Assembly: GCA_021811155.1 (NCBI GenBank)
Contig: JAJZPO010000024.1
Location: 1-36,125 of the forward strand
Direction of reading: 5' to 3'
Source: Bacillota bacterium
GTDB taxonomy: Bacteria; Bacillota; Desulfitobacteriia; Desulfitobacteriales; JAJXUE01
DNA: 36,125 nt
Shown here: piece by piece, positions 17,773 through 29,988 of the stretch
How positions within the stretch are numbered: the first letter of the stretch is position 1
How the letters are laid out: every line of letters starts with the position of its first letter
Made by a program: the position numbers and the translations under genes
The notes under the pieces: model-generated
Databases searched by the model: none
What the model was told of the DNA's origin: nothing
Seen by the model: only the letters and a program-made list of their open reading frames with translations

Positions 17773-17888
17773 AGAATTTGTCTCCTTCTCTGTGACAAGT
17801 GTCCGCATCTGATTGACATTGTTTCGACCGCAGGGGTGCAAAATCCTTTTATGAGAAAAGTCAAACAGTTTTATTTCCTGGCTGGGAA

Positions 17889-17924
17889 GCAAAAACTCCT
17901 GACCGCTAGAGCAGGAGTTTTTGC
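17889..17924. terminator. 13-bp terminator ending the ccm operon
   Basis: GCAAAAACTCCTG (17889-17901) pairs perfectly with 17912-17924. The stem has A5 and T5 at its base, so it works in either direction. It lies 33 nt beyond the last ccm-operon gene. Confidence 0.85.
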
Positions 17925-17956
17925 TATTGGCTTAACCAGGGCTTCAAAGAGGGTTC

Positions 17957-18562
17957 CTAGTCCCTTGGCTGCCAGTTTTTCAGATCCGTCTCACTGATTA
18001 CGATATCGCCGGCTTTATCTGCGGTGTAGCTTAACTGCTGCGGCGGATATTTGACGCATCCGCCGCTAATTCCGCTCATATCGGCCAAGGCCCAGCGGGT
18101 ACCGCAGGTGTTGCAAACAAGCTGGTCCCCTTCAATGTGAAACTGGCGCGAGAAACAAGGTTCACAGAAACTGACTGCAACCGTCACCCTCCCGGCCGGG
18201 GTAAGAAAGGCCATAATCGGCTCACCTTTCTGGTTTTGGCCGATATTCCGGTTAGGGTCATACATGGCATAAACCAGATTATTCTGTTCCAGTTTCGCCA
18301 GGGGAAGCTTTACCTGCCCCCCGCCAATCTGGATATCCGGGGTAATATCAGTCATATTTACAGTCCTGTTGCTGTAATTTACGCTCTTGCCGGTACTGTA
18401 CTTGTTATCAAAACCCGGGATGCTCTCCCGGGTTGAAAGGACAACCGCGGCAATCCCGACAACCAAAAGGCCGAGCAGAGCGCCCAAAACAATCTTCTTC
18501 CTTTTCCGCCTTCTCCGGTACTCCGCTTCCAGACGGGCCTTTTTTCCCTCCAGGTCAGTCAT
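17957..18562 (-). CDS. Membrane-anchored DUF2318 protein, last ccm-operon gene
   Basis: 201 residues. A basic, coiled N-terminus (about 1-24) and one transmembrane helix (about 25-43) precede an external domain with cysteines at 133, 136, 150, 153 and 169 (SFCEPCFSRQF, VCNTCGTRW, GGCVKYPP). This is the DUF2318 pattern, a Cys-rich domain thought to bind iron or an iron-sulfur site and found with FTR1-type iron uptake. I chose ATG 18562 (7 nt from GGGGGTG) over the TTG one codon earlier. Its position at the end of the cytochrome c maturation operon suggests a role in iron or haem supply or thiol handling outside the membrane, which is inference. Confidence 0.82.
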   Translation of the reverse strand: MTDLEGKKARLEAEYRRRRKRKKIVLGALLGLLVVGIAAVVLSTRESIPGFDNKYSTGKSVNYSNRTVNMTDITPDIQIGGGQVKLPLAKLEQNNLVYAMYDPNRNIGQNQKGEPIMAFLTPAGRVTVAVSFCEPCFSRQFHIEGDQLVCNTCGTRWALADMSGISGGCVKYPPQQLSYTADKAGDIVISETDLKNWQPRD

Positions 18563-18582
18563 CAATTGTCACCCCCATGATG

Positions 18583-19161
18583 TTAATAGAGCGGTGCGAC
18601 CTGTTTCAGGACATCTGCCGGATTGGCAGCAATAATCCCAACCCACATCACGCGTTTGCCGGTTAACCAATAGAAGTGCTGCATTCCGTCGGAACTGGTG
18701 ACACTCTTGTATTCCCGCCCGTCAATCTTAACACTTTTATAGTTTTGAAAAGCCTTGCTGGCGGGAACTTTCTGATCCATGGACTTAAACAGGGCCGCGG
18801 CGTCCTGTTCATTTTTCGCTTCGGAGTAATAGATGACCAGTTGGTCATTGCCATTTCCCTGGTACATGGCTACAACAGCCTGTTGCACTTTAATGTCAGC
18901 GCCGTGCATTTGATTAATGGCCTGCTCTGCCTGGGAACCTGTAACAGCGTTAGCCAGACTCATGCCGGCCAGCTGCTGGGGAAAGAGCTTTGTGTCCACC
19001 TGGGGAGCCTGGGTCTGGGACGAGGCAGCATTGGCAGGCGACGGGGCCGGACTGCTGCCGCTGCGCCTGCCGAGCTGTGCCGCCGTCATAGTATAGGCCA
19101 ACATTACAAGCGTAAGAATCAAGGCTATAATCCCTATAGCCCTGAGATATTTTCTTTCCAT
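18583..19161 (-). CDS. Hypothetical membrane-anchored protein in the ccm operon
   Basis: 192 residues. The N-terminus has one hydrophobic helix (about 8-27), then a Ser/Pro/Ala-rich linker (35-55) and an extracytoplasmic domain with no cysteine. The domain has alternating strand and helix segments (QLVIYYSEAKNEQDAAALFK, then FYWLTGKRVMWVGIIAANP). No family is recognised. The ATG has GGGGAGGG upstream, and the gene lies 15 nt after ccmD and 18-20 nt before the DUF2318 gene, so it belongs to the operon. It may be a periplasm-facing accessory of the haem machinery. Confidence 0.75.
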   Translation of the reverse strand: MERKYLRAIGIIALILTLVMLAYTMTAAQLGRRSGSSPAPSPANAASSQTQAPQVDTKLFPQQLAGMSLANAVTGSQAEQAINQMHGADIKVQQAVVAMYQGNGNDQLVIYYSEAKNEQDAAALFKSMDQKVPASKAFQNYKSVKIDGREYKSVTSSDGMQHFYWLTGKRVMWVGIIAANPADVLKQVAPLY

Positions 19162-19176
19162 CTGACCCTCCCCGGC

Positions 19177-19329
19177 TTAGATTTTGTCCTTCAAGGACTG
19201 CTTAAGCAAATCCAACTCGTCTGCCAAGCGTGCCTCACGCTTGCCCAGGCGCAGGGTATACCAAAAGATCAAGGCCCAGATAAAAGTGTAAGCAATAAAC
19301 AGATAAAATATGGTGTCGCTGTTATCCAT
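19177..19329 (-). CDS. ccmD: CcmD-like small membrane protein
   Basis: A 50-residue frame from ATG 19329 with GGGAGG upstream. It encodes an N-terminal transmembrane helix (TIFYLFIAYTFIWALIFWY) followed by a charged amphipathic helix (LGKREARLADELDLLKQSL). Size, topology and position right after ccmC match CcmD, which in System I stabilises CcmE with CcmABC and helps release holo-CcmE. It fills the 191-nt gap between ccmC and the next gene. Sequence conservation of CcmD is low, so topology and context carry the call. Confidence 0.85.
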   Translation of the reverse strand: MDNSDTIFYLFIAYTFIWALIFWYTLRLGKREARLADELDLLKQSLKDKI

Positions 19330-19352
19330 TTGTTTTCAACCTCCCTTAACGG

Positions 19353-20042
19353 TTACAGATTTTCCTTGATGGCTCTGATTTCTGCGCTCATCCTCTCGAT
19401 CCTGACACTGCGCCGCATCAAGAAAATGTAAAGCAGAGTAAAGGCGAAAAGGCTGACGAAAAACGCGGGTATCATGCCTCCGGCCAGGGCAAATCCCGTT
19501 GAACCGCCTACTACAGGCGCCGGGTGCAGGGTTTTCCACCAGCGGATAGACATGAATACTATGGGTACATCCACGAAAGAGATGATGCCGAAGACTGCTG
19601 CCAGGCGGGCGCGCTTCTCTTCCTCACCCAGGGAGGAACGGATCTTGCCGTAGGCCAGATAGAGAAACCACATGATCAGAGTCGTGGTCAGGCGGGGATC
19701 CCAGGACCACCAGGTATGCCAGATGGGCTTAGCCCAAATAGGTCCGGTGACCAGGACAATGGTGGTGAAAATCACCCCGAGTTCCGCCGATGTATAGGCG
19801 TAGATATCCCACCTGGCGTCCTTGCCGGCCAGGTAGGCGATACTTGCCACAAACACCACAAAAAAGGCAAACATACCAATCCAGGCCGAAGCTACATGAA
19901 AATAGAAAATCCTCTGAACGTCGCCCATGGTTTTCTCAGTCGGGGCATAGACCAACGAAAGGTACAAGGCCGCCAGTACGGAAAAGAAAGTAAGCCAGGC
20001 CAGCAGGCGGTCCCAACCAGGATTTTCCCGGTTTTGAGCCAT
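19353..20042 (-). CDS. ccmC: Haem exporter subunit CcmC
   Basis: 229 residues with six transmembrane helices and the tryptophan-rich haem-handling motif WHTWWSWDPRLT (about 108-119). It also has the two conserved histidines that ligate haem, His49 in FYFHV and His173 in LHPAP. CcmC loads haem onto CcmE at the outer face of the membrane, with CcmD and the CcmAB ATPase. ATG 20042 has GGAGGTG 8 nt upstream and lies 3 nt after ccmB. The family is shared with CcsA, but length and neighbours indicate CcmC. Confidence 0.93.
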   Translation of the reverse strand: MAQNRENPGWDRLLAWLTFFSVLAALYLSLVYAPTEKTMGDVQRIFYFHVASAWIGMFAFFVVFVASIAYLAGKDARWDIYAYTSAELGVIFTTIVLVTGPIWAKPIWHTWWSWDPRLTTTLIMWFLYLAYGKIRSSLGEEEKRARLAAVFGIISFVDVPIVFMSIRWWKTLHPAPVVGGSTGFALAGGMIPAFFVSLFAFTLLYIFLMRRSVRIERMSAEIRAIKENL

Positions 20043-20045
20043 TCT

Positions 20046-20720
20046 TTACACCTCCAACAGGTAATCAAACAGAATAAAGGGCAGACCGGAGTAAATTGCC
20101 CCAAAGGTGACCAGGAGTTTCAGGTATAAGCTAACTCCGGACAAATCACCGGAGAAGACCCCGCCTGTAACCTGAACCGCACAGATCAGAACCGGCACGA
20201 TCAGGGGAATCATCAGGATCGGCAGCAGAATTTCACTGATTCTGGTGCTGGCAGCCAGGGCGGAAAGAAAAGTGCCGATAACCATAAAAGCATATGTGCC
20301 CAAAAACAGGACAAGAATCAACAGGCCCAAATTGGCCGGCAGCGGGTAATTGAACATGATAAAAAACATAGGTATGGCAATCAGTTCAACAACAGCCATG
20401 AGCATCAGGTTCATCAGGGTTTTTGCCACATAAATTGCGCTGCGGTCCACCGGGCAGAGCATCAGCCCGTAAATACAGTCGTTCTGCCTCTCGGATACGA
20501 AGGAGCGGTTCAGCCCCAAAATACCGGCGAAGGCAAGGGTCACCCAAATCACTCCGGGCAGGACCTTGGCAACTTCATCCTTGGCAATCTCCAGGGCAAA
20601 GCCGAAAGAGACCGCTACCAGCAGCGCAAAGACCAGCATGGCGCTTAGCATTTCTTTTGTCCGCAGCTCGCTCTTAACTTCTTTCCAGAGCAGGACCCGT
20701 ACTTTGCCGGCGAAGTTCAT
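20046..20720 (-). CDS. ccmB: Haem exporter membrane subunit CcmB
   Basis: 224 residues with six hydrophobic helices, starting MNFAGKVRVLLWKEVKSELRTKEM, the typical CcmB N-terminal amphipathic region. The segment GLMLCPVDRSAIYVAKTLMN is another family feature. With CcmA it forms the ABC complex needed to release haem-loaded CcmE from CcmC. ATG 20720 overlaps the TGA stop of ccmA as TGATG; the longer frame to 20789 lies inside ccmA. Confidence 0.92.
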   Translation of the reverse strand: MNFAGKVRVLLWKEVKSELRTKEMLSAMLVFALLVAVSFGFALEIAKDEVAKVLPGVIWVTLAFAGILGLNRSFVSERQNDCIYGLMLCPVDRSAIYVAKTLMNLMLMAVVELIAIPMFFIMFNYPLPANLGLLILVLFLGTYAFMVIGTFLSALAASTRISEILLPILMIPLIVPVLICAVQVTGGVFSGDLSGVSLYLKLLVTFGAIYSGLPFILFDYLLEV

Positions 20721-21421
20721 CAGGCTCCCTCCACTAATTTCAGATACAAGTGCCGGAAGTCCTCCCGCCCAATCCCCTTCGGGTCGCACCTGTGCACAAT
20801 CCTGCCGCCTACCAGAACAACAGTCTGGTCGCTCTGTTCCAGGCCCTGGTCAAAGTCGTGGGTAATCAAAAACACGGTGTGTTTGCTCTGGGAGAGCTGC
20901 TGCAAGACAGAATTGAGAATCCCTTTGGCCATCTCATCCAACCCGGTGTAGGGCTCGTCCATCAACAGGATTGGGGGGTTATGCACCAGGGAACGGGCAA
21001 TAGCAAGTCTTTGCTGCATTCCGCGGGAAAAGGTGCGGACCGTATCGTTGGCGGCGTAGGTCAGTCCCACATCCTCCAGCAATTTCTCCACCCGCTTGTT
21101 TAAATCTTGCACTTCGTACATCTTGCCGTAAAAAACAAGGTTTTCCCGCGCACTCAGATTGTCATAGAGAAATGTGTTGTGGGAAATAACCCCGACCTTT
21201 TTGCGCAGTACGTCTCCGTGCTTTGAGACATCCATGCCGTCGATAAACAACTGGCCGCTGGATGCTTTGCTGAGCAGGGCCAGGATTTTCAACGTGGTGC
21301 TCTTGCCCGCTCCGTTCGGCCCGAAGCAAGTGACAAATTCGCCTGCGGCGACTTCCAAGTCTATTCCCTTGAGGATTCGCTTACTGCCAATTTGCTTGGT
21401 CAGGCCCTTGGCCACAATCAA
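20720..21421 (-). CDS. ccmA: Haem exporter ATPase CcmA
   Basis: An ABC ATPase of about 233 residues. Walker A is GPNGAGKST, the signature region is FSRGMQQRLAIARSL (Phe-Ser-Arg-Gly instead of Leu-Ser-Gly-Gly), and Walker B is ILLMDEPYTGLDE. The modified signature is normal for CcmA. I prefer TTG 21421 because GGAGGTG lies 6 nt upstream; the GTG at 21430 sits inside that ribosome site. The gene overlaps ccmB by the TGATG junction. Confidence 0.92.
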   Translation of the reverse strand: MIVAKGLTKQIGSKRILKGIDLEVAAGEFVTCFGPNGAGKSTTLKILALLSKASSGQLFIDGMDVSKHGDVLRKKVGVISHNTFLYDNLSARENLVFYGKMYEVQDLNKRVEKLLEDVGLTYAANDTVRTFSRGMQQRLAIARSLVHNPPILLMDEPYTGLDEMAKGILNSVLQQLSQSKHTVFLITHDFDQGLEQSDQTVVLVGGRIVHRCDPKGIGREDFRHLYLKLVEGA

Positions 21422-21438
21422 ACGGTCCACCTCCCAGC

Positions 21439-22434
21439 TCAGGCGAGCTCTCTCAGCTGCAGCTTGACCTGAACCAGCAACTGCTTGTATTTTTCCCGGC
21501 TTTCCCTGTACTCCTGTTCACTCATCTGCCCTGCTGCAAACCTGTCGTCCAGTGACTTGATACGCTGCAAGAGCAGGTCCTGTTTGGCCTTGAGCCTAAG
21601 GAACAACTGATCATCCCCGGCGCCGGAGTCGGCTTGCGGCTCTTCCTCCTCATGCCCGAAACGCCCTCTGTACCACAGGATGGCGGCAGCTATCCCCAAG
21701 CCAAGCATGATAAATAGATAGGCAGCCCACAGATGGGGGTTTGTGTACACAAGAGGGTCAGTCATAAACAGCTTGACATGCCCCGCCGGGTGAAGCTTAA
21801 CGTCAAAACCTCTGGCCAGTTGATTATTGGAGGGAGTTGTCTGGGCCTGCGGCTGATCCACAGTGATGTTGACTACAGTGCCTGCTGCCAGATTTCCGCC
21901 CCAAAGCTGTTCATACGTATTGTTATTGAAGTTTACCTGCCCTTCGTCCTGCAGAACGTCTGCTTTGACTGAAAAAGCGCTGACGGGTGCAATTACAAAA
22001 AACTGCTGGGTGGTAAAAGGAATTTTCTTGCTCACTGCTGCCGGCAGGCCGGATACAGGCAGAGTATAGCTAAAAGAAAAAGTGCTTTTTCCAGACGCTA
22101 TGGCCTTGTACACCTGTATGCCGTCAGGGACTCCGGCGTAATCGGAGTTCTCCAAACCGTTCACTTGCAAATTCCGGTAACCGCCTGGCAGGGGAATTAA
22201 CCATGCGGTCCGTTTTTTGCCGCTGGGGTCGGCGACAGCCCCTCCGCTGTAGGGTTTGCTGTCCGGGTTATTGAAGGACAGGAACTCAGTTATGGTCAGG
22301 CCGGTATTACCAGGGCTTATGATAAAATGAGCTTCCTCAACCTGCGGCCCGCCGCTGCCGGCACCCAAAACGGCTGAAGCCGGCAGGAGCAGCACCAGGG
22401 CTGCAAGCAGGACACCCAAGACGCGCTTAATCAT
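21439..22434 (-). CDS. Exported membrane-anchored protein of the ccm operon
   Basis: 331 residues from ATG 22434 (AGGTGGAG upstream). A signal peptide (1-25) precedes a roughly 200-residue beta-rich external domain without cysteines, then a transmembrane helix (about 234-257). A cytoplasmic acidic linker and a C-terminal helical segment of the SHOCT kind (LKAKQDLLLQRIKSLDDRF, then GQMSEQEYRESREKYKQLL) follow. It lies between the CcmI-like gene and ccmA, 27 nt after the former. The C-terminal coil with its short tetramer-like helix suggests oligomerisation. No described Ccm protein matches this layout. Confidence 0.8.
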   Translation of the reverse strand: MIKRVLGVLLAALVLLLPASAVLGAGSGGPQVEEAHFIISPGNTGLTITEFLSFNNPDSKPYSGGAVADPSGKKRTAWLIPLPGGYRNLQVNGLENSDYAGVPDGIQVYKAIASGKSTFSFSYTLPVSGLPAAVSKKIPFTTQQFFVIAPVSAFSVKADVLQDEGQVNFNNNTYEQLWGGNLAAGTVVNITVDQPQAQTTPSNNQLARGFDVKLHPAGHVKLFMTDPLVYTNPHLWAAYLFIMLGLGIAAAILWYRGRFGHEEEEPQADSGAGDDQLFLRLKAKQDLLLQRIKSLDDRFAAGQMSEQEYRESREKYKQLLVQVKLQLRELA

Positions 22435-22461
22435 AAATCTCCACCTTTCAAACAGGAACAA

Positions 22462-22929
22462 CTAAAACTGACGTTCACCGCAAGCATGGCAGTATTCCTG
22501 GCCAACTTCCTTCAGGACTGCGCCGCAGCGGTGGCACTTTTCGGCCAATTCACCCGAACTGCTGAGGCGAGCCAACTCCTGTTCGATTTCCTGTTCGATC
22601 TCAGCGGCAGTAAATCCTGCCGCATTACTCTTGCCCTTGGCCTTCGACCTGGTGTCTACCATCTGGTCCTGGGCCCGCATAATATTCACCGCTGCTCCGG
22701 CATAGGTGTTCTTGAGCTGCTGGTAATCTTCCTCTGAGAGTTTGTTCATGTGGTAGTCGAACTCAATTTCGCCCAAGGCGCTCATGACAGTTTCTTTCTC
22801 CGCTGCCAGGCTTGGACGTGCCGGCTTAACTTCGGGGTAGCCCTCACCCCGGTAGCCCTTAAACAGAGGATAACCTATTAATATCAGTACCACCACTGCC
22901 AGGATAACACTGAAAAAGGCGCTCAACAC
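22462..22929 (-). CDS. CcmI-like membrane protein with zinc ribbon
   Basis: 155 residues. One N-terminal transmembrane helix (3-23) is followed by the CcmI-type segment (about 40-75: EKETVMSALGEIEFDYHMNK, then LSEEDYQQLKNTY). A coiled acidic helix comes next, and a C-terminal zinc ribbon has Cys132, Cys135, Cys147 and Cys150 (CHRCGAVLKEVGQEYCHACG). In System I, CcmI holds apocytochrome c for CcmH and CcmF. The TPR domain of proteobacterial CcmI is absent and the zinc ribbon takes its place. Start is GTG 22929 or TTG 22926 behind GGGAGG. Confidence 0.82.
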   Translation of the reverse strand: MLSAFFSVILAVVVLILIGYPLFKGYRGEGYPEVKPARPSLAAEKETVMSALGEIEFDYHMNKLSEEDYQQLKNTYAGAAVNIMRAQDQMVDTRSKAKGKSNAAGFTAAEIEQEIEQELARLSSSGELAEKCHRCGAVLKEVGQEYCHACGERQF

Positions 22930-22944
22930 ATTTCCCTCCCGTCC

Positions 22945-23427
22945 TTATAGGTACCGCTTCAATTCCTCATCCAGTTTCTCCGCGTATACGGAATCGATGG
23001 GTGCAGGCCCGTTCTCCTCTCCTTCTTTTGCCCGGCCGGGAATGACCCATTTTTCCAAACCCAGGTACACTAGGACGGCCCCGCCTACTGCAGCAACAAA
23101 CGGAGTAATCCATGCCACCCAGTCAAAACCCTTCTTGGGCGGCGCCGCCAGCACACTCTCTCCGTAAACCGAGGACAAATAGGCATATACCTGCTGCTTG
23201 TTCATGCCATCCTTGTACATTTTTTCCCTGATAATCCCGCGCATTTTTTGAGCGGCCGCATCGTCGCAAGAAGAGAGAACCATATTACAGCCATCCAGTA
23301 CGCAGATTACGCCGGATTCCACATCCAGAGGAATCGGTTTGTTCTGCCAATCTTCCGCTGCCCAGGCGCGGGAAGGAAGCAGGAGTAACAGCAGCGCCAG
23401 GGCCAAAACAGGCAAAGCTTTCTTCAT
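22945..23427 (-). CDS. ccmH: CcmH-type thiol protein with altered Cys motif
   Basis: 160 residues: a signal peptide (1-23), the CcmH three-helix core (about 38-90), a transmembrane helix (about 105-124) and an acidic tail. CcmH normally reduces or holds the apocytochrome CxxCH site through an LRCxxC motif. Here the aligned site reads ICVLDGCNMVLSSCDD, i.e. Cys42-x4-Cys47-x6-Cys54. The downstream YGESVLAAPPKKGFDWVAWITPF is typical of the family. AAGGAGG lies 7 nt before the ATG, and the gene is 14 nt after ccmF. The changed spacing suggests different thiol chemistry. Confidence 0.85.
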   Translation of the reverse strand: MKKALPVLALALLLLLLPSRAWAAEDWQNKPIPLDVESGVICVLDGCNMVLSSCDDAAAQKMRGIIREKMYKDGMNKQQVYAYLSSVYGESVLAAPPKKGFDWVAWITPFVAAVGGAVLVYLGLEKWVIPGRAKEGEENGPAPIDSVYAEKLDEELKRYL

Positions 23428-23440
23428 GGTCCCGACCTCC

Positions 23441-25444
23441 TTACACTGCCTCTTGCGTCAACCGTTCACTGCGCACGTATTTGGAGCCCGCCTGACTGCC
23501 CCTGCCCGGCCACAAAGCGAAGATCGTGCCAAACACCAGGATATAGCCGCCAATCCACAGCCAGATCATCAGCGGATTCACAAAAGCTTTGAAAGTCGCG
23601 TTCCCCTCCTGATCCCAGGATGCAAGAACTACGTATAGATCTTCTTTGGGCGTTGAATAAAGGCCGACCACCGACTCAGGCTGATCAGGCGCCGTTGAGT
23701 AGAACACCTTTTGCGGTTCAATTTGCGCCATGTATGCGCCGTTTTTAAACACAGTCATATCAGCGTACACCGCGTCTTTGTCGGTAGTCAGCTTCTTCTC
23801 AGCCAAATTATTGAAACTAATTGAATACTGGCCGATACTCAGGCTGTCACCAACCTTGATTGTTTTAGTTGCATCGAGGCTATAGGCTTGGGAACCGGTG
23901 ATGCCTATCAGCATCAGCACAAGCCCCAGGTGGATGATATACCCGCCGTGGCGCCTCCGGTTGCGAACCATCAAGCGAATGAACGCTACAGGATATGATT
24001 CGCCTGTCAAACGGCGCCTCACCCTGGTGCCCCGGAATATTTCCATCAGGATTGTGGCGATGGTGAAAAATCCGATCGCAAAGCCTGCCAGCGCATAGAA
24101 CTTTCTGATGCCCAGGAAGAACAGGAGCGCTGCCACCGCAACAGCTCCCACAGCCGGCCACTGGAAATTCTGCACCAGGTTTTTCAGAGTTGCCTTGCGC
24201 CAGGCAATCAGGGGGCAGACACCCATAAGCAGAAACAGCGCCAGTCCAAGGGGTGCACTGACCGTGTTGAAGAAGGGCGCTCCCACCGTAACCTTCACAC
24301 CGCGGATGGCCTCTGAAATCAGAGGATAAATCGTACCCCAGAACACGGCGAAAGCCAAGCCGACAAGCACCAGGTTGTTCAGCAAAAAGCTACTTTCTTT
24401 GGACAGGAAGGATTCAAAACTGCGCGCCTGGGACAAAAGTTTGCGCCGGTCTACGATGAGGAAAAGTGAAGCAAACAGCATAAATACTGTAAAGGCCAGG
24501 AAATACCGGCCCAGAGGCCCGCCGCTGAAGGCGTGGACCGAAGTCAAGACACCGCTGCGCACCAGGAAAGTGCCGAAAAGAGTCAAGACGTAGGTAATTG
24601 CGATTAGAGCCACATTCCATACCTTAAGCATGTCTTTACGTTCCTGAACCATGACCGAGTGCAGGAATGCGGAACCCGTCAACCAGGGGATGAAGGAAGC
24701 GTTCTCCACAGGGTCCCAACCCCAGTACCCGCCCCAGCCTAATTCGGTGTAAGCCCATTGGGCGCCCCAAAGGTTGCCCAGACTTAAGAATACCCAAGCC
24801 ATAATAGTCCAGCGCCGGGTAACTTTAATCCAATCATCGTCAGCTGTTTTGGTCAACAAGGCTGTCATGCCGTAAGCAAAAGGTACGGCAAAGCCCACAT
24901 ACCCCAGATATGTGGTCAGGGGATGAAACACCATCCCAGGGTTCTGCAGCATCGGGTTCATGCCCGCACCGTCCGGCACCACCGCTCCCGGAGTCCAGCC
25001 TGGGACCCGCTCGAAGGGATTTACCAAAAAGGCCAGTACGAAAAAGAAAAAGGCCGAGTTAAAGAGCAGGATACTGCTGGCATAAGGCGTGAGCTGCTTG
25101 GTCTTCCTGGAAAAGGCAACGATTACCGTATACCAGGTCAAGAGAAAAAGCCAAAGCAGGAGAGATCCGGCATTGCCGGCCCACCAGGCTGCAAAGCGGT
25201 AAAAAACAGGCAGGTCTTTGCTGGTGTATTCGTAAACATAATTAATGCTGTAATCCCCGCTCATCAAAAAGTACAACAAGATAAAGGTAGACACAGAACT
25301 GAGAACTGCCACCGCCAGCGATGCCCCTTTGCCGCTGGCAAGGAAAGCGGGGTTCTTTTTCGCAACTCCTATCACAAAGGCTGCGATTCCGTACAGACTG
25401 ATGAATAAGCCTAAAACCAGCGCAAGATAGCCGACTTCAGCCAT
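23441..25444 (-). CDS. ccmF: Cytochrome c haem lyase CcmF
   Basis: 667 residues with about 15 transmembrane helices. It has the long tryptophan-rich WWD haem motif at 226-248 (LGWGGYWGWDPVENAS) and conserved external histidines at 174 (VFHPL), 262 (FLHSV) and 304 (SVHAF). CcmF takes haem from holo-CcmE and attaches it to the CxxCH cysteines of apocytochrome c. A final periplasmic domain (about 510-610) and last helix (about 625-645) close the protein. ATG 25444 has GGAGGG upstream. It lies 104 nt after ccmE, the largest gap inside the operon. Confidence 0.95.
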   Translation of the reverse strand: MAEVGYLALVLGLFISLYGIAAFVIGVAKKNPAFLASGKGASLAVAVLSSVSTFILLYFLMSGDYSINYVYEYTSKDLPVFYRFAAWWAGNAGSLLLWLFLLTWYTVIVAFSRKTKQLTPYASSILLFNSAFFFFVLAFLVNPFERVPGWTPGAVVPDGAGMNPMLQNPGMVFHPLTTYLGYVGFAVPFAYGMTALLTKTADDDWIKVTRRWTIMAWVFLSLGNLWGAQWAYTELGWGGYWGWDPVENASFIPWLTGSAFLHSVMVQERKDMLKVWNVALIAITYVLTLFGTFLVRSGVLTSVHAFSGGPLGRYFLAFTVFMLFASLFLIVDRRKLLSQARSFESFLSKESSFLLNNLVLVGLAFAVFWGTIYPLISEAIRGVKVTVGAPFFNTVSAPLGLALFLLMGVCPLIAWRKATLKNLVQNFQWPAVGAVAVAALLFFLGIRKFYALAGFAIGFFTIATILMEIFRGTRVRRRLTGESYPVAFIRLMVRNRRRHGGYIIHLGLVLMLIGITGSQAYSLDATKTIKVGDSLSIGQYSISFNNLAEKKLTTDKDAVYADMTVFKNGAYMAQIEPQKVFYSTAPDQPESVVGLYSTPKEDLYVVLASWDQEGNATFKAFVNPLMIWLWIGGYILVFGTIFALWPGRGSQAGSKYVRSERLTQEAV

Positions 25445-25548
25445 TGCCGATGGTCCCTCCTTTAAATGGTCAACTCAACCTGCCGGCTGCCCTGTCAGGA
25501 CAGCCGCCTTAATTTTCTCATGTGTTCAGTTCAACTCGTGCCAGGGAC

Positions 25549-26016
25549 CTAGCTTTTTAAGCCCAAGGATTTGAGGAATTTGGTTACAGGCCCCTCGTTC
25601 TTGGCGGTTGTATTCTCCGCCTCGTACTTGGATGGGCATTTGAGCAGCAGCTGGTCCGCATGGAAAGTACCGTCTGGATTGAATTTTCCTTGCACCACTG
25701 CTTGCGTCGCCTCGGGGAAGTTGTCCGGTTTTACGTCATTGTAAATCACCGTGAGTTTTTTCTCCGGGTTCGCTGGGTCGTACAGGTCAAATTTCAGTTC
25801 CACCGGGTTTTTGTCCCCGTTCCATTGCGCATGTGCGACGTCGATATTGGCTTCGATGCGGTAATATTTGTCCGCTCTGCCTTGTCCGGCCAGCGCTTGC
25901 TGCACCGTCAGCGCATATGCGGGTGTTGTGCTGCTCATACCGGAGATAATCAGATAGGCTATGGCCGCTACAATCACCAGCACTCCTGCAGTAATCTTGA
26001 CGTTCTTACCTTTCAC
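25549..26016 (-). CDS. ccmE: Haem chaperone CcmE, Cys-type
   Basis: 155 residues: a short cytoplasmic start, one transmembrane helix (about 8-26), an OB-fold domain (IEANIDVAHAQWN to VVQGKFNPDGTF) and a flexible tail. In the usual CcmE, haem is bound covalently by His in HxxxY. Here the site is LLLKCPSKYE, i.e. Cys127-x3-Tyr131, the variant known from Desulfovibrio and archaeal CcmE. The GTG start at 26016 has AAGGAGG 8 nt upstream. It is first in the operon, about 195 nt downstream of the predicted transcription start. Confidence 0.93.
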   Translation of the reverse strand: MKGKNVKITAGVLVIVAAIAYLIISGMSSTTPAYALTVQQALAGQGRADKYYRIEANIDVAHAQWNGDKNPVELKFDLYDPANPEKKLTVIYNDVKPDNFPEATQAVVQGKFNPDGTFHADQLLLKCPSKYEAENTTAKNEGPVTKFLKSLGLKS

Positions 26017-26314: not shown

Positions 26315-26497
26315 TCAGCAGATTTTTTTGATGTTCCCATTTGCCTTAACCTTGGAAATCGCAAGAACCTTGTCGCCTTGCGCCCGGAATTCTACTGAAC
26401 AACAATTGCAGAAGTACGATGAAACACTTTTATTGCCCCGCACAACTTCAAACAATTTACCCACGGCGCCGTGTTGGCCACAAATCGGGCATCGCAT
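26315..26497 (-). CDS. Small zinc-ribbon protein
   Basis: 60 residues with MRCPICGQHG at the start (Cys3, Cys6) and a second cluster FCNCC (Cys30, Cys32, Cys33), the layout of a zinc ribbon. The C-terminal half is basic. ATG 26497 has AAAGGGGGCG upstream, and a promoter (TTGTTA-N18-TATGAT) lies 37 nt before it. No partner is evident; it sits between the copper genes and the ccm operon and may be an independent unit. Function is unknown. Confidence 0.7.
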   Translation of the reverse strand: MRCPICGQHGAVGKLFEVVRGNKSVSSYFCNCCSVEFRAQGDKVLAISKVKANGNIKKIC

Positions 26498-26751: not shown

Positions 26752-26949
26752 TTAGCCTGCCACGCTGTACCCAGCATCCGCAACCGCTTTGGCCAAGAGC
26801 TCCCGGTCAGCGTTCCCGGTGACAACAGCCTCTTTTTTGTCCAAGTCCACTTGAGCGTTTTCAACTCCTGCTACGCCCTTCAAGGCTTTTTCCACACTCA
26901 TTTTGCAGTGCATGCAGGTCATGCCTTCAACTTTAAGAACCATTTTCAC
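26752..26949 (-). CDS. copZ: Copper chaperone CopZ
   Basis: 65 residues forming a single heavy-metal-associated domain, with the Cu(I) site GMTCMHC (Cys12 and Cys15) in the first loop and the usual beta-alpha-beta-beta-alpha-beta order. It delivers Cu(I) to CopA and CsoR in the cytoplasm. GTG 26949 has AGGAGGTG 7 nt upstream; the ATG two codons later is the alternative. It is downstream of copA on the same strand but separated by about 350 bp of repeat-rich spacer, so co-transcription is not certain. Confidence 0.92.
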   Translation of the reverse strand: MKMVLKVEGMTCMHCKMSVEKALKGVAGVENAQVDLDKKEAVVTGNADRELLAKAVADAGYSVAG

Positions 26950-27300: not shown

Positions 27301-29988
27301 CTACTGCCCCAGTTTCTTGCCGTATCCCTTTAGCAACAGGGAACTGGTGACCACTGACACAGAAGAAAAGGCCATGGCCAGCCCGGCCCATTCCGGGGGT
27401 AAAAGCTTGCCGGTCACGGGATATAGTACCCCCGCTGCAACAGGGATCCCGATGGTGTTGTAAATCAAAGCCCAAAACAAGTTCTGTTTAATTTTAGCCA
27501 AGGTTTTGCGGCCCAGGCGGATTGCCCTCTCCACGTCCTGGAGGTCATTTCGCACCAGAACCACATCCCCGGTTTCCTTTGCCACATCAGTGCCGGAACC
27601 GATGGCGATACCTATGTCGGCTTGAGCCAAGGCAGGCGCATCATTGATGCCGTCTCCCACCATCCCCACTTTTAGGCCCTGGGACTGATACTTGCGGACA
27701 ATGTCAATCTTGTCCTGAGGGAGAATTTCCGCCACAACCTCCGTTATCCCGACCTGCTGGCCCACCACCTCGGCCACCTTCTTGTTGTCCCCGGTAATCA
27801 TAAAGGTTTTCAGCCCCAACCGGTGCAGACGGGCTATGGCCTGGGCTGCACTGTCCTTGAGCACATCCGCCAGGGCTATCAAACCGGCTGCCTGGCCGTC
27901 AAGGGCTATGAACATGGTGGTCTTGCCAGCCCCAGCCAGGCGCTTAAAATCAGCCTCAGCCCGGGCTATGTCGACTCCGTTTTTCTCCAGCAGCTTGGCG
28001 TTGCCGACCAGCAGCCGGCGCCCGGCGTAGGAACAGGAGATGCCGTACCCGCTTTCTTCCAGGTAATCCTGAACCTCATCAACTCTAACCCCTTCAGCTC
28101 TTGCTTTGCACACAACTGACGTGGCCAGTGGGTGCAGGGAGAGACTTTCCCCGGCTGCGGCTATTCTCAGTAATTCTGTCTGAGCATACGGCGCATAAGG
28201 GACAATATCCGTGACTTCCGGAGTCCCCTTGGTCAGGGTCCCGGTTTTGTCAAACCCAACCGCCTGCAGCCCGGCAATTCCCTCCAGCACGGCAGCCGAT
28301 TTGAACAAAATGCCCCGATTCAAACCCACCCCGCTGCCCACCATAATGGCCGTAGGAGTAGCCAGGCCCAGAGCGCACGGACAGGCTATCACCAGCACGG
28401 CAATCGCGGCTGTAAAGGCAAAAACGAAGCTGGTGTGCAGTCCGAAATACCAAACCAAAAAGGTGATTACAGCGATGGACACAACCGCCGGGACAAAATA
28501 GTTGGATATCGTATCGGCAAAACGTTGGATAGGCGGTTTGACCCCCTGGGCATCTTCTACCATTTGAATTATTCCGGCCAGGACGGTATCCTTGCCAGTC
28601 TTGCCCGTCCTGACTTTGATACTGCCGGACCTGTTGATGGTGGCCCCGACTACGCTGTCACCAACCCCCTTGTCAACAGGGATTGATTCCCCGGTCAGCA
28701 TGGACTCGTCAATGCTGGCTTGTCCCTCAATAATTTCGCCATCCACAGGGATTTTCTCCCCGGGCTTGACCAAAACTATATCCCCAATCCTGACTTCTGA
28801 GGCGGCAACATCTTTTTCAACCCCGTCCAGCCAGAGCCGCGCCTTGTCAGCCTGAAGTTGCAACAGCCGTTTCAGTGCCTGGCCTGCTCGCCCTTTGGCC
28901 CGGGCCTCCAGGTACTTGCCGAAGCGGATGAAGGTTATGAGCAGGGCTGATGTGTCAAAAAAGGTCGGTCCCATAAAAAACACTTGCGGAAAAGTTGTCA
29001 GGACGCTGTAACCATAGGCTGCCGTAATCCCCATGGCTACCAGCACATCCATATTGGCGGAACGGTTTTTCAGGGCATGATAAGCCCCGCGGTAAAAAGT
29101 CCAGCCGGCGCTGAACTGAACCACAGTGGCCATGCCAAACATTGAATATAACACCGCCGGGGTCATGGGTAAAAACCACATCATCCCCATCAGCGGCAGA
29201 GAGACAACCGCGCTGAAAATCAGCCAGTTGCGTTGGACAATAGCGCTGCGGTCATCCTGCTCCTCGTCGTTCTTTTCCAGCGGTATATAGCCCGCATCCC
29301 GCACCTGTTCAAAAATCCCCGCCAAACTCACTACCTTGGGTTCAAATTCCACGCTTACTGTCTCATTGGCAAAATTAACTGCAGCGAGATGTACCCCGGG
29401 CGTACCTTTCAGCTTCTTCTCAATGGTCAGGGCGCAGTTGGCACAGGTCATGCCGCTGACCTTAAACTGCTGCTTGCCTGCCGCCTGGTCAGATGGCAGC
29501 GCCAATTTCTCAACCGGCGGCCATTCCACTTCAGTCTCCGGCTGCGGTGTCTCAACAGGATTAGTCGTGTAACCTGCCTGTTCCACTGCCAGCCGAATTT
29601 CCTCCAGGTTCGCCCGAGAGGGGTCAAAGCTAAACAAAGCGCTGGCGTCATCCAGGCTGACCCGGATATTCCCCACCCCCGGTACAGCCTCAAGGGCCTT
29701 GGTAACTCTTCTGACACAGTGCTGGCAGGTCATACCGTAAACCTTAATTTCCTGCTCAGTTTTGCCCCAAACCGCGTAGCCGGCCGCTTCAATTGCCTTA
29801 GTCACCTCTGCGATGCCAATCTGAGCCGGGTCATAGACAAAATCAGCGGCTGCCTCTGCCAAAGATACCTTGACCTGCGTGACACCGGGCAAATTCTGCA
29901 AGGCCTGGGTAACCCTCCTTACACAATGCTCGCAAGTCATTCCCGTAACGCCCAATTCAGCCTTCATCAGTTGCTCAGATGCTGACAT
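27301..29988 (-). CDS. copA: Cu(I)-exporting P-type ATPase CopA, three HMA domains
   Basis: 895 residues of the P1B-1 class that pumps Cu(I) out of the cytoplasm. Three N-terminal metal-binding domains carry MTCEHC (17-22), MTCQHC (86-91) and MTCANC (180-185). The transmembrane Cu site is CPC (536-538). TGES is at 432-435, the phosphorylated Asp580 is in [10 protein letters not shown], the nucleotide-domain motif is SLHPLA, and [10 protein letters not shown] marks the hinge. Two N-terminal domains are usual in Firmicutes; the first two here are close duplicates, while the third is separated by a 45-residue Pro/Glu-rich linker. ATG 29988 has GGAGGGGG 9 nt upstream. It follows csoR by 41 nt and is repressed by it. 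Confidence 0.96.

Follow-up and report, generated by a model that had tools for sequence, protein, structure and literature searches.

System I* is the variant of the Ccm system that has a Cys-type CcmE, and it occurs in Desulfovibrio, in archaea and in some Firmicutes. The commonest form of the CcmE motif is CPSKY, and CcmH is absent in about two thirds of the examples (PMC3601427). It has been considered that System I* may have compensatory features for the missing CcmG and CcmH functions; bioinformatics, however, gave no evidence for them (PMC3601427). In proteobacteria, the TPR domain of CcmI binds apocytochromes and acts as their chaperone (PMC3884852). FtrD/DUF2318 proteins have been described in another setting, and are almost always encoded in the Ftr/P19 iron-uptake cluster (PMC6083913).

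The window, i.e. the whole stretch of 36,125 nucleotides that was analysed, contains on the minus strand at 17957-26016 one operon of the order ccmE-F-H-I-p331-A-B-C-D-p192-ftrD. The following features were assigned:

25549..26016, minus strand: ccmE of the Cys type (CPSKYE; CxxxY haem-binding motif of System I*); PF03100 at 74.8 bits, motif read directly
23441..25444, minus strand: ccmF, haem lyase core; PF01578 and PF16327
22945..23427, minus strand: divergent ccmH; PF03918 at 56.6 bits, alignment of 22
22462..22929, minus strand: gene for a short CcmI-like protein of 155 aa; N-terminal TM helix, coil and C-terminal CxxC..CxxC
21439..22434, minus strand: p331, 331 aa from the ATG; alignment, AF2 model (pLDDT 83) and hhalign match of the tail to CcmI (92.9%)
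20720..21430, minus strand: ccmA, haem exporter ATPase; TIGR01189 at 133 bits (cut-off 131.6)
20046..20720, minus strand: ccmB, its ATG start overlapping the ccmA stop; PF03379 at 111.9 bits
19353..20042, minus strand: ccmC; PF01578, and TIGR01191 at 139.5 bits
19177..19329, minus strand: ccmD-like gene, 50 aa, single TM; place after ccmC, length, TM pattern, kept in relatives
18583..19161, minus strand: p192; alignment and AF2 model (pLDDT 85)
17957..18565, minus strand: ftrD/DUF2318 (PF10080, now named FtrD-like); 68.3 bits (cut-off 26.3)
17887..17925, minus strand: hairpin with a U-rich 3' arm, 3' of ftrD; folding energy

The original prediction had named four accessory proteins encoded among and after the ccm genes. 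All four are open frames on the minus strand, in the predicted places and with recognisable ccm neighbours. The intergenic gaps downstream of ccmF are -1 to 27 nt, which also holds for the section 17957-22929, where a spacing of 0-30 nt had been claimed; ccmE and ccmF are separated by 104 nt. The ccmD and ccmH genes also belong to the operon, the former having been omitted from the predicted gene list and the presence of the latter not having been weighed. The hairpin stretch (-31 kcal/mol, z -2.8) is likely to mark the operon end. Upstream of ccmE and on the same strand lie an HMA (CopZ-like) gene (26752-26949) and a CopA-type P-ATPase gene (27301-29988), and a similar HMA/CopA-type pair precedes the betaN-ccmF operon of another genome (G062, L144). 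Between ccmE and the CopZ-like gene, a 60-aa frame (26315-26497) contains two CxxC pairs (MRCPICGQHG...CNCC); a family search with it gave no match above cut-off.

The window contains the CcmABCEF core of System I*. Its CcmE carries the sequence LLLKCPSKYE, in which Cys replaces the haem-binding His. For CcmC, TIGR01191 was the best model, yet its score remained below the cut-off of 186. Judged from their families, CcmABCD would move haem to CcmE, and CcmF-CcmH would attach it. A thioredoxin-like (CcmG) gene was not found within the operon, and the window genome encodes a CcdA-like protein (contig C14). The absence of CcmH, which is a non-strict criterion for System I*, does not apply here; the PF03918 protein of the operon has a C-x4-C-x6-C motif in place of CxxC, and its presence contradicts the earlier assumption that the CcmH function is missing. 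Several ResB (System II) genes were also found in the window genome (G000; contigs C8, C51 and C67), two of which have multihaem cytochrome-like frames as neighbours, and therefore both maturation systems coexist in this genome.

The CcmI-like protein has a single TM helix and lacks a second one, and no TPR match was found in a family search; the CcmI model TIGR03142 gave a score of 18.3 bits and thus did not reach its cut-off (29.3). Its zinc ribbon had been proposed as a supplier of thiols. This proposal was rejected, because the ribbon is present in only 3 of 26 CcmI-like orthologues, from two lineages, and because it is predicted to face the cytoplasm according to the positive-inside rule.

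p331 consists of a signal peptide, a beta-sandwich, a juxtamembrane His motif, a TM helix at about residues 242-266, and a CcmI/SHOCT-like cytoplasmic hairpin. All further residue numbers refer to a possible 340-aa form with its start at a TTG nine codons upstream of the ATG; nine has to be subtracted for the ATG form. The tail and the CcmI coil are homologous (hhalign 92.9%, 3.7e-7), and SHOCT (PF09851) matches the tail with 16.1 bits, below the cut-off of 27. The beta-domain is homologous to that of betaN (hhalign 97.8%, E 1.3e-12), a p331 paralogue with its own TM helix and a SHOCT-like tail, which aligns weakly with the CcmI coil (58.9%). In relatives, betaN is usually encoded by the first gene of the operon. 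As predicted for at least two of the four proteins, p331 and p192 matched no described Ccm component, and searches of Pfam, NCBIfam and the PDB gave no credible sequence match for these two families or for betaN; a Pfam scan over all members of the three families yielded scattered sub-threshold matches only. A description of any of them as a Ccm subunit was not found in the open literature searched.

The juxtamembrane consensus of p331 is FHSxxHIxxWxxSPLxxTNPHLW, and the version in the window is LHPAGHVKLFMTDPLVYTNPHLW. In the alignment of 18 full-length members, H45, H224, H228 and H243 were invariant. When short forms were included (27 proteins), H224 was found in 26 proteins, the remaining one being gapped at this position, H228 in 25 and H243 in 26, and an aromatic residue occupied position 232 in all 27 (F in the window, W in most relatives). 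The AF2 model had an overall pLDDT of 83 and was mostly above 90 over residues 40-200, the helices also being modelled with confidence, whereas the His motif region was poorly modelled (pLDDT below 50 for residues 208-234).

A Foldseek search with p331 retrieved ribophorin I/OST1 and the N-domain of M1 aminopeptidases (E 6e-7). The predicted fold of residues 40-205 resembles the luminal sandwich of the former and the N-terminal beta-sandwich of the latter; however, the TM-scores are only about 0.3, the identity is 7-16%, and the pathways are unrelated. Ribophorin has a luminal sandwich, a TM helix and a cytoplasmic part, as has p331. The resemblance to non-catalytic domains would fit an alternative reading, according to which the accessory proteins have no part in haem or thiol handling. 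They would instead be chaperones or anchors for multihaem apocytochromes, which after export would be kept at the membrane face of the Gram-positive wall, and the His residues would bind a structural metal. The lack of the TPR chaperone domain in CcmI and the multihaem cytochromes encoded in the window genome also favour this reading. We consider it unlikely, and it is challenged by short p331 forms in several lineages, which have shed the beta domain and usually kept the His motif together with the TM helix and the tail. The conserved core is therefore the His motif and not the sandwich.

To survey the phylum, 399 genomes were searched with PF03100 (CcmE), of which 78 were positive, and 80 neighbourhoods were examined with genes called profile-first. 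The order betaN-ccmE-ccmF-ccmH-ccmI-p331-ccmA-ccmB-ccmC-ccmD-p192-ftrD recurred in full or almost in full in many families. In separate searches of the phylum, the number of genomes with a match was 29 for p331, 32 for p192 and 31 for betaN. At thresholds of E<=1e-9 for p331 and E<=1e-40 for betaN, each was present in 26 of the 399 genomes, and in both cases 25 of the 26 also had CcmE (Fisher p 1e-18 each). The one exception (G138) has a ccmF-I-p331-ccmABC arrangement at the end of a contig, where the ccm locus is broken (L145). At all 26 loci with both genes p331 lies directly 5' of ccmA, with a 63-aa frame in between at one of them (L075). About 50 CcmE-bearing genomes have no p331, and some of these have a plain ccmABCEF cluster with no extra genes; thus, the Ccm core does not depend on the extension. 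A scan of the collection with a subset of eight p331 sequences found nine loci, among them Thermincola ferriacetica bins and Carboxydothermus islandicus. All nine are in Bacillota records, and the p331-type module may thus be restricted to a clade.

p192 is composed of an N-terminal anchor and an exofacial alpha/beta domain with a conserved LHG (H86), and its gene normally follows ccmD in relatives. The best Foldseek match was the extracellular domain of PknH/TiME (E 5e-3, probability 1.0), a likeness of fold (TM-score 0.4) with no sequence relation. PDB matches to designed PPR proteins covered about 20 residues and were dismissed as not credible. CcmE was found in 28 of the 32 genomes with p192. 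Several copies lie far from ccm, beside sdaAB, pdxST, hisIF or ccdA, in genomes with or without CcmE; the genome with the copy beside ccdA (L134:7629-9100, G242) gave no CcmE match. Because of these paralogues, p192 is the weaker case for a dedicated ccm accessory. The copies beside sdaAB, pdxST and hisIF would also be expected if the genes were co-transcribed from operon habit only, being functionally unrelated genes of respiration or of the envelope. This explanation appears very improbable: the gene order is fixed, p331 and betaN occur almost only where CcmE does, over many families, and the p331 tail is a homologue of CcmI. The original prediction would have been undermined by a linkage seen in no other genome, or by an evident relationship to systems of another kind, and neither was found, with the above reservation for p192; the linkage of p331 and betaN to ccmE extends well beyond this genome.

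FtrD is a Cys-rich anchored protein that is predicted to be exofacial by the positive-inside rule. Its motif, C-x2-C-x13-C-x2-C-x15-C, conforms to the family pattern CxxC-x13-CxxC-x14,15-C. The usual location of such genes in Ftr/P19 clusters raises the alternative that the module ties haem export to the uptake of iron: FtrD and its partners would deliver or reduce iron, and p331 and p192 would form an iron-uptake arm in a shared operon. One locus (L012:1-4465, G053) agrees with this, as a complete FTR1-P19 (PF10634)-FtrD-like-FtsX-type iron-uptake cluster follows the ccm genes directly on the same strand. However, FTR1 or P19 genes were not present near ccm in the window and, L012 excepted, a detailed reading of further neighbourhoods revealed none; moreover, p331 is linked to ccm and not to ftr, and in one genome (G095) ftrD is paired with betaN and ccmH only. 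A coupling to iron acquisition is thus improbable. At three loci the ccm operon has a second ftrD paralogue some 8-12 kb away, together with MacB/FtsX-like permeases and a BlaI-like regulator (L048:16278-19885, L050:1-3676 and L075:12786-18705; names by eye).

Two kinds of CcmH were found among the relatives, one with a C-x2-4-C..C motif, in which the third Cys follows after six or so residues, and one of the CPAC type. A Cys pair in betaN (CExxxGMxC or CEIVNGGHSC) was present at 18 of 18 loci with the former type, including one at which the first CcmH Cys is lost (L045), and at 0 of 5 loci with a CPAC-type or cysteine-depleted CcmH, the association being counted by locus and uncorrected for phylogeny. 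Two genomes contain one locus of each type (G015, L008/L009; G182, L048/L057). At Carboxydothermus ccm loci that lack CcmH, betaN is devoid of cysteines. The G095 genome has betaN, ccmH and ftrD as a stand-alone unit (L139). This unit and the match between betaN cysteines and CcmH type suggest a shared redox function. betaN, the Cys pair of which goes with the CcmH type among the relatives, is a likelier thiol partner than FtrD. Yet no betaN match was found anywhere in the window genome with the query that matched 31 of the 399 genomes.

Our preferred explanation is that the operon encodes a clade-specific extended System I* machine. p331, with betaN in relatives, would be a dedicated subunit alongside the CcmABCD exporter and CcmF-CcmH, into which it would be docked by its TM helix and CcmI-like cytoplasmic hairpin. 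The exofacial beta-sandwich of p331 and betaN would present apocytochrome or CcmE, and would thus replace the TPR domain that is missing from CcmI here. Next to the exporter, the three juxtamembrane His residues and the aromatic residue of p331 may bind either haem or a metal. An extracytoplasmic thiol relay could be formed by CcmH, the Cys pair of betaN and FtrD in most of the relatives that have CcmH. In the window lineage, CcmH and FtrD would have been kept and betaN lost; as betaN is missing, the thiol-relay part cannot apply to the window as stated. Membership in a complex, docking of apocytochromes, binding of haem and a thiol relay are what the proposal adds to the observations, namely conservation, a recurrent gene order, linkage at the genome level, the layout of the domains, the invariant His residues and the match of CcmH type with betaN cysteines.

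We are highly confident that, in this clade, p331 truly belongs to the Ccm machinery, while the specific mechanism of docking plus His site is a tentative proposal. For the extended machine with docking, His site and thiol relay as a whole, the chances appear evenly balanced, an assessment that blends the previous two. A still narrower version, that the p331 motif H-x3-H-x3-[WF]-x10-H is a haem relay site on the outer membrane face between CcmABCD and CcmE/CcmF and that p331 and betaN together supply the compensatory features, is rather doubtful. The original reading as an extended haem-delivery module is plausible. A dedicated accessory set tied to Cys-type ccmE in many families was recovered, while the thiol supply by the zinc ribbon and the missing CcmH had to be given up.

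Compared with CcmI/CycH of proteobacterial System I, the CcmI-like protein shares the N-terminal TM helix and the cytoplasmic coil, but is without the second TM helix and the TPR domain, stays below the TIGR03142 cut-off, and has acquired a cytoplasmic zinc ribbon in two lineages only. The FtrD protein shares PF10080 and the spacing of five Cys with the Cj1651-type proteins of the Ftr/P19 iron system; in contrast to these, it is encoded in a ccm operon, and the window contains neither Ftr1 nor P19. As the conserved extra membrane-anchored proteins match no described component, the locus probably represents a System I* variant with undescribed and unstudied subunits in an anaerobic Gram-positive group. 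The families also occur in Thermincola and Carboxydothermus, which are used for studying electron transfer through Gram-positive cell walls. The three families, two of which are almost confined to CcmE-bearing genomes, could be compensatory features of System I*. In summary, the locus shares with System I* the CcmABCDEF core and the CPSKY-containing CcmE, and no CcmG gene was found in the operon; it differs by a CcmH whose Cys motif is altered, by the shortness of its CcmI, by FtrD, and by the additional families p331, betaN and p192, of which betaN is absent from the window genome itself.
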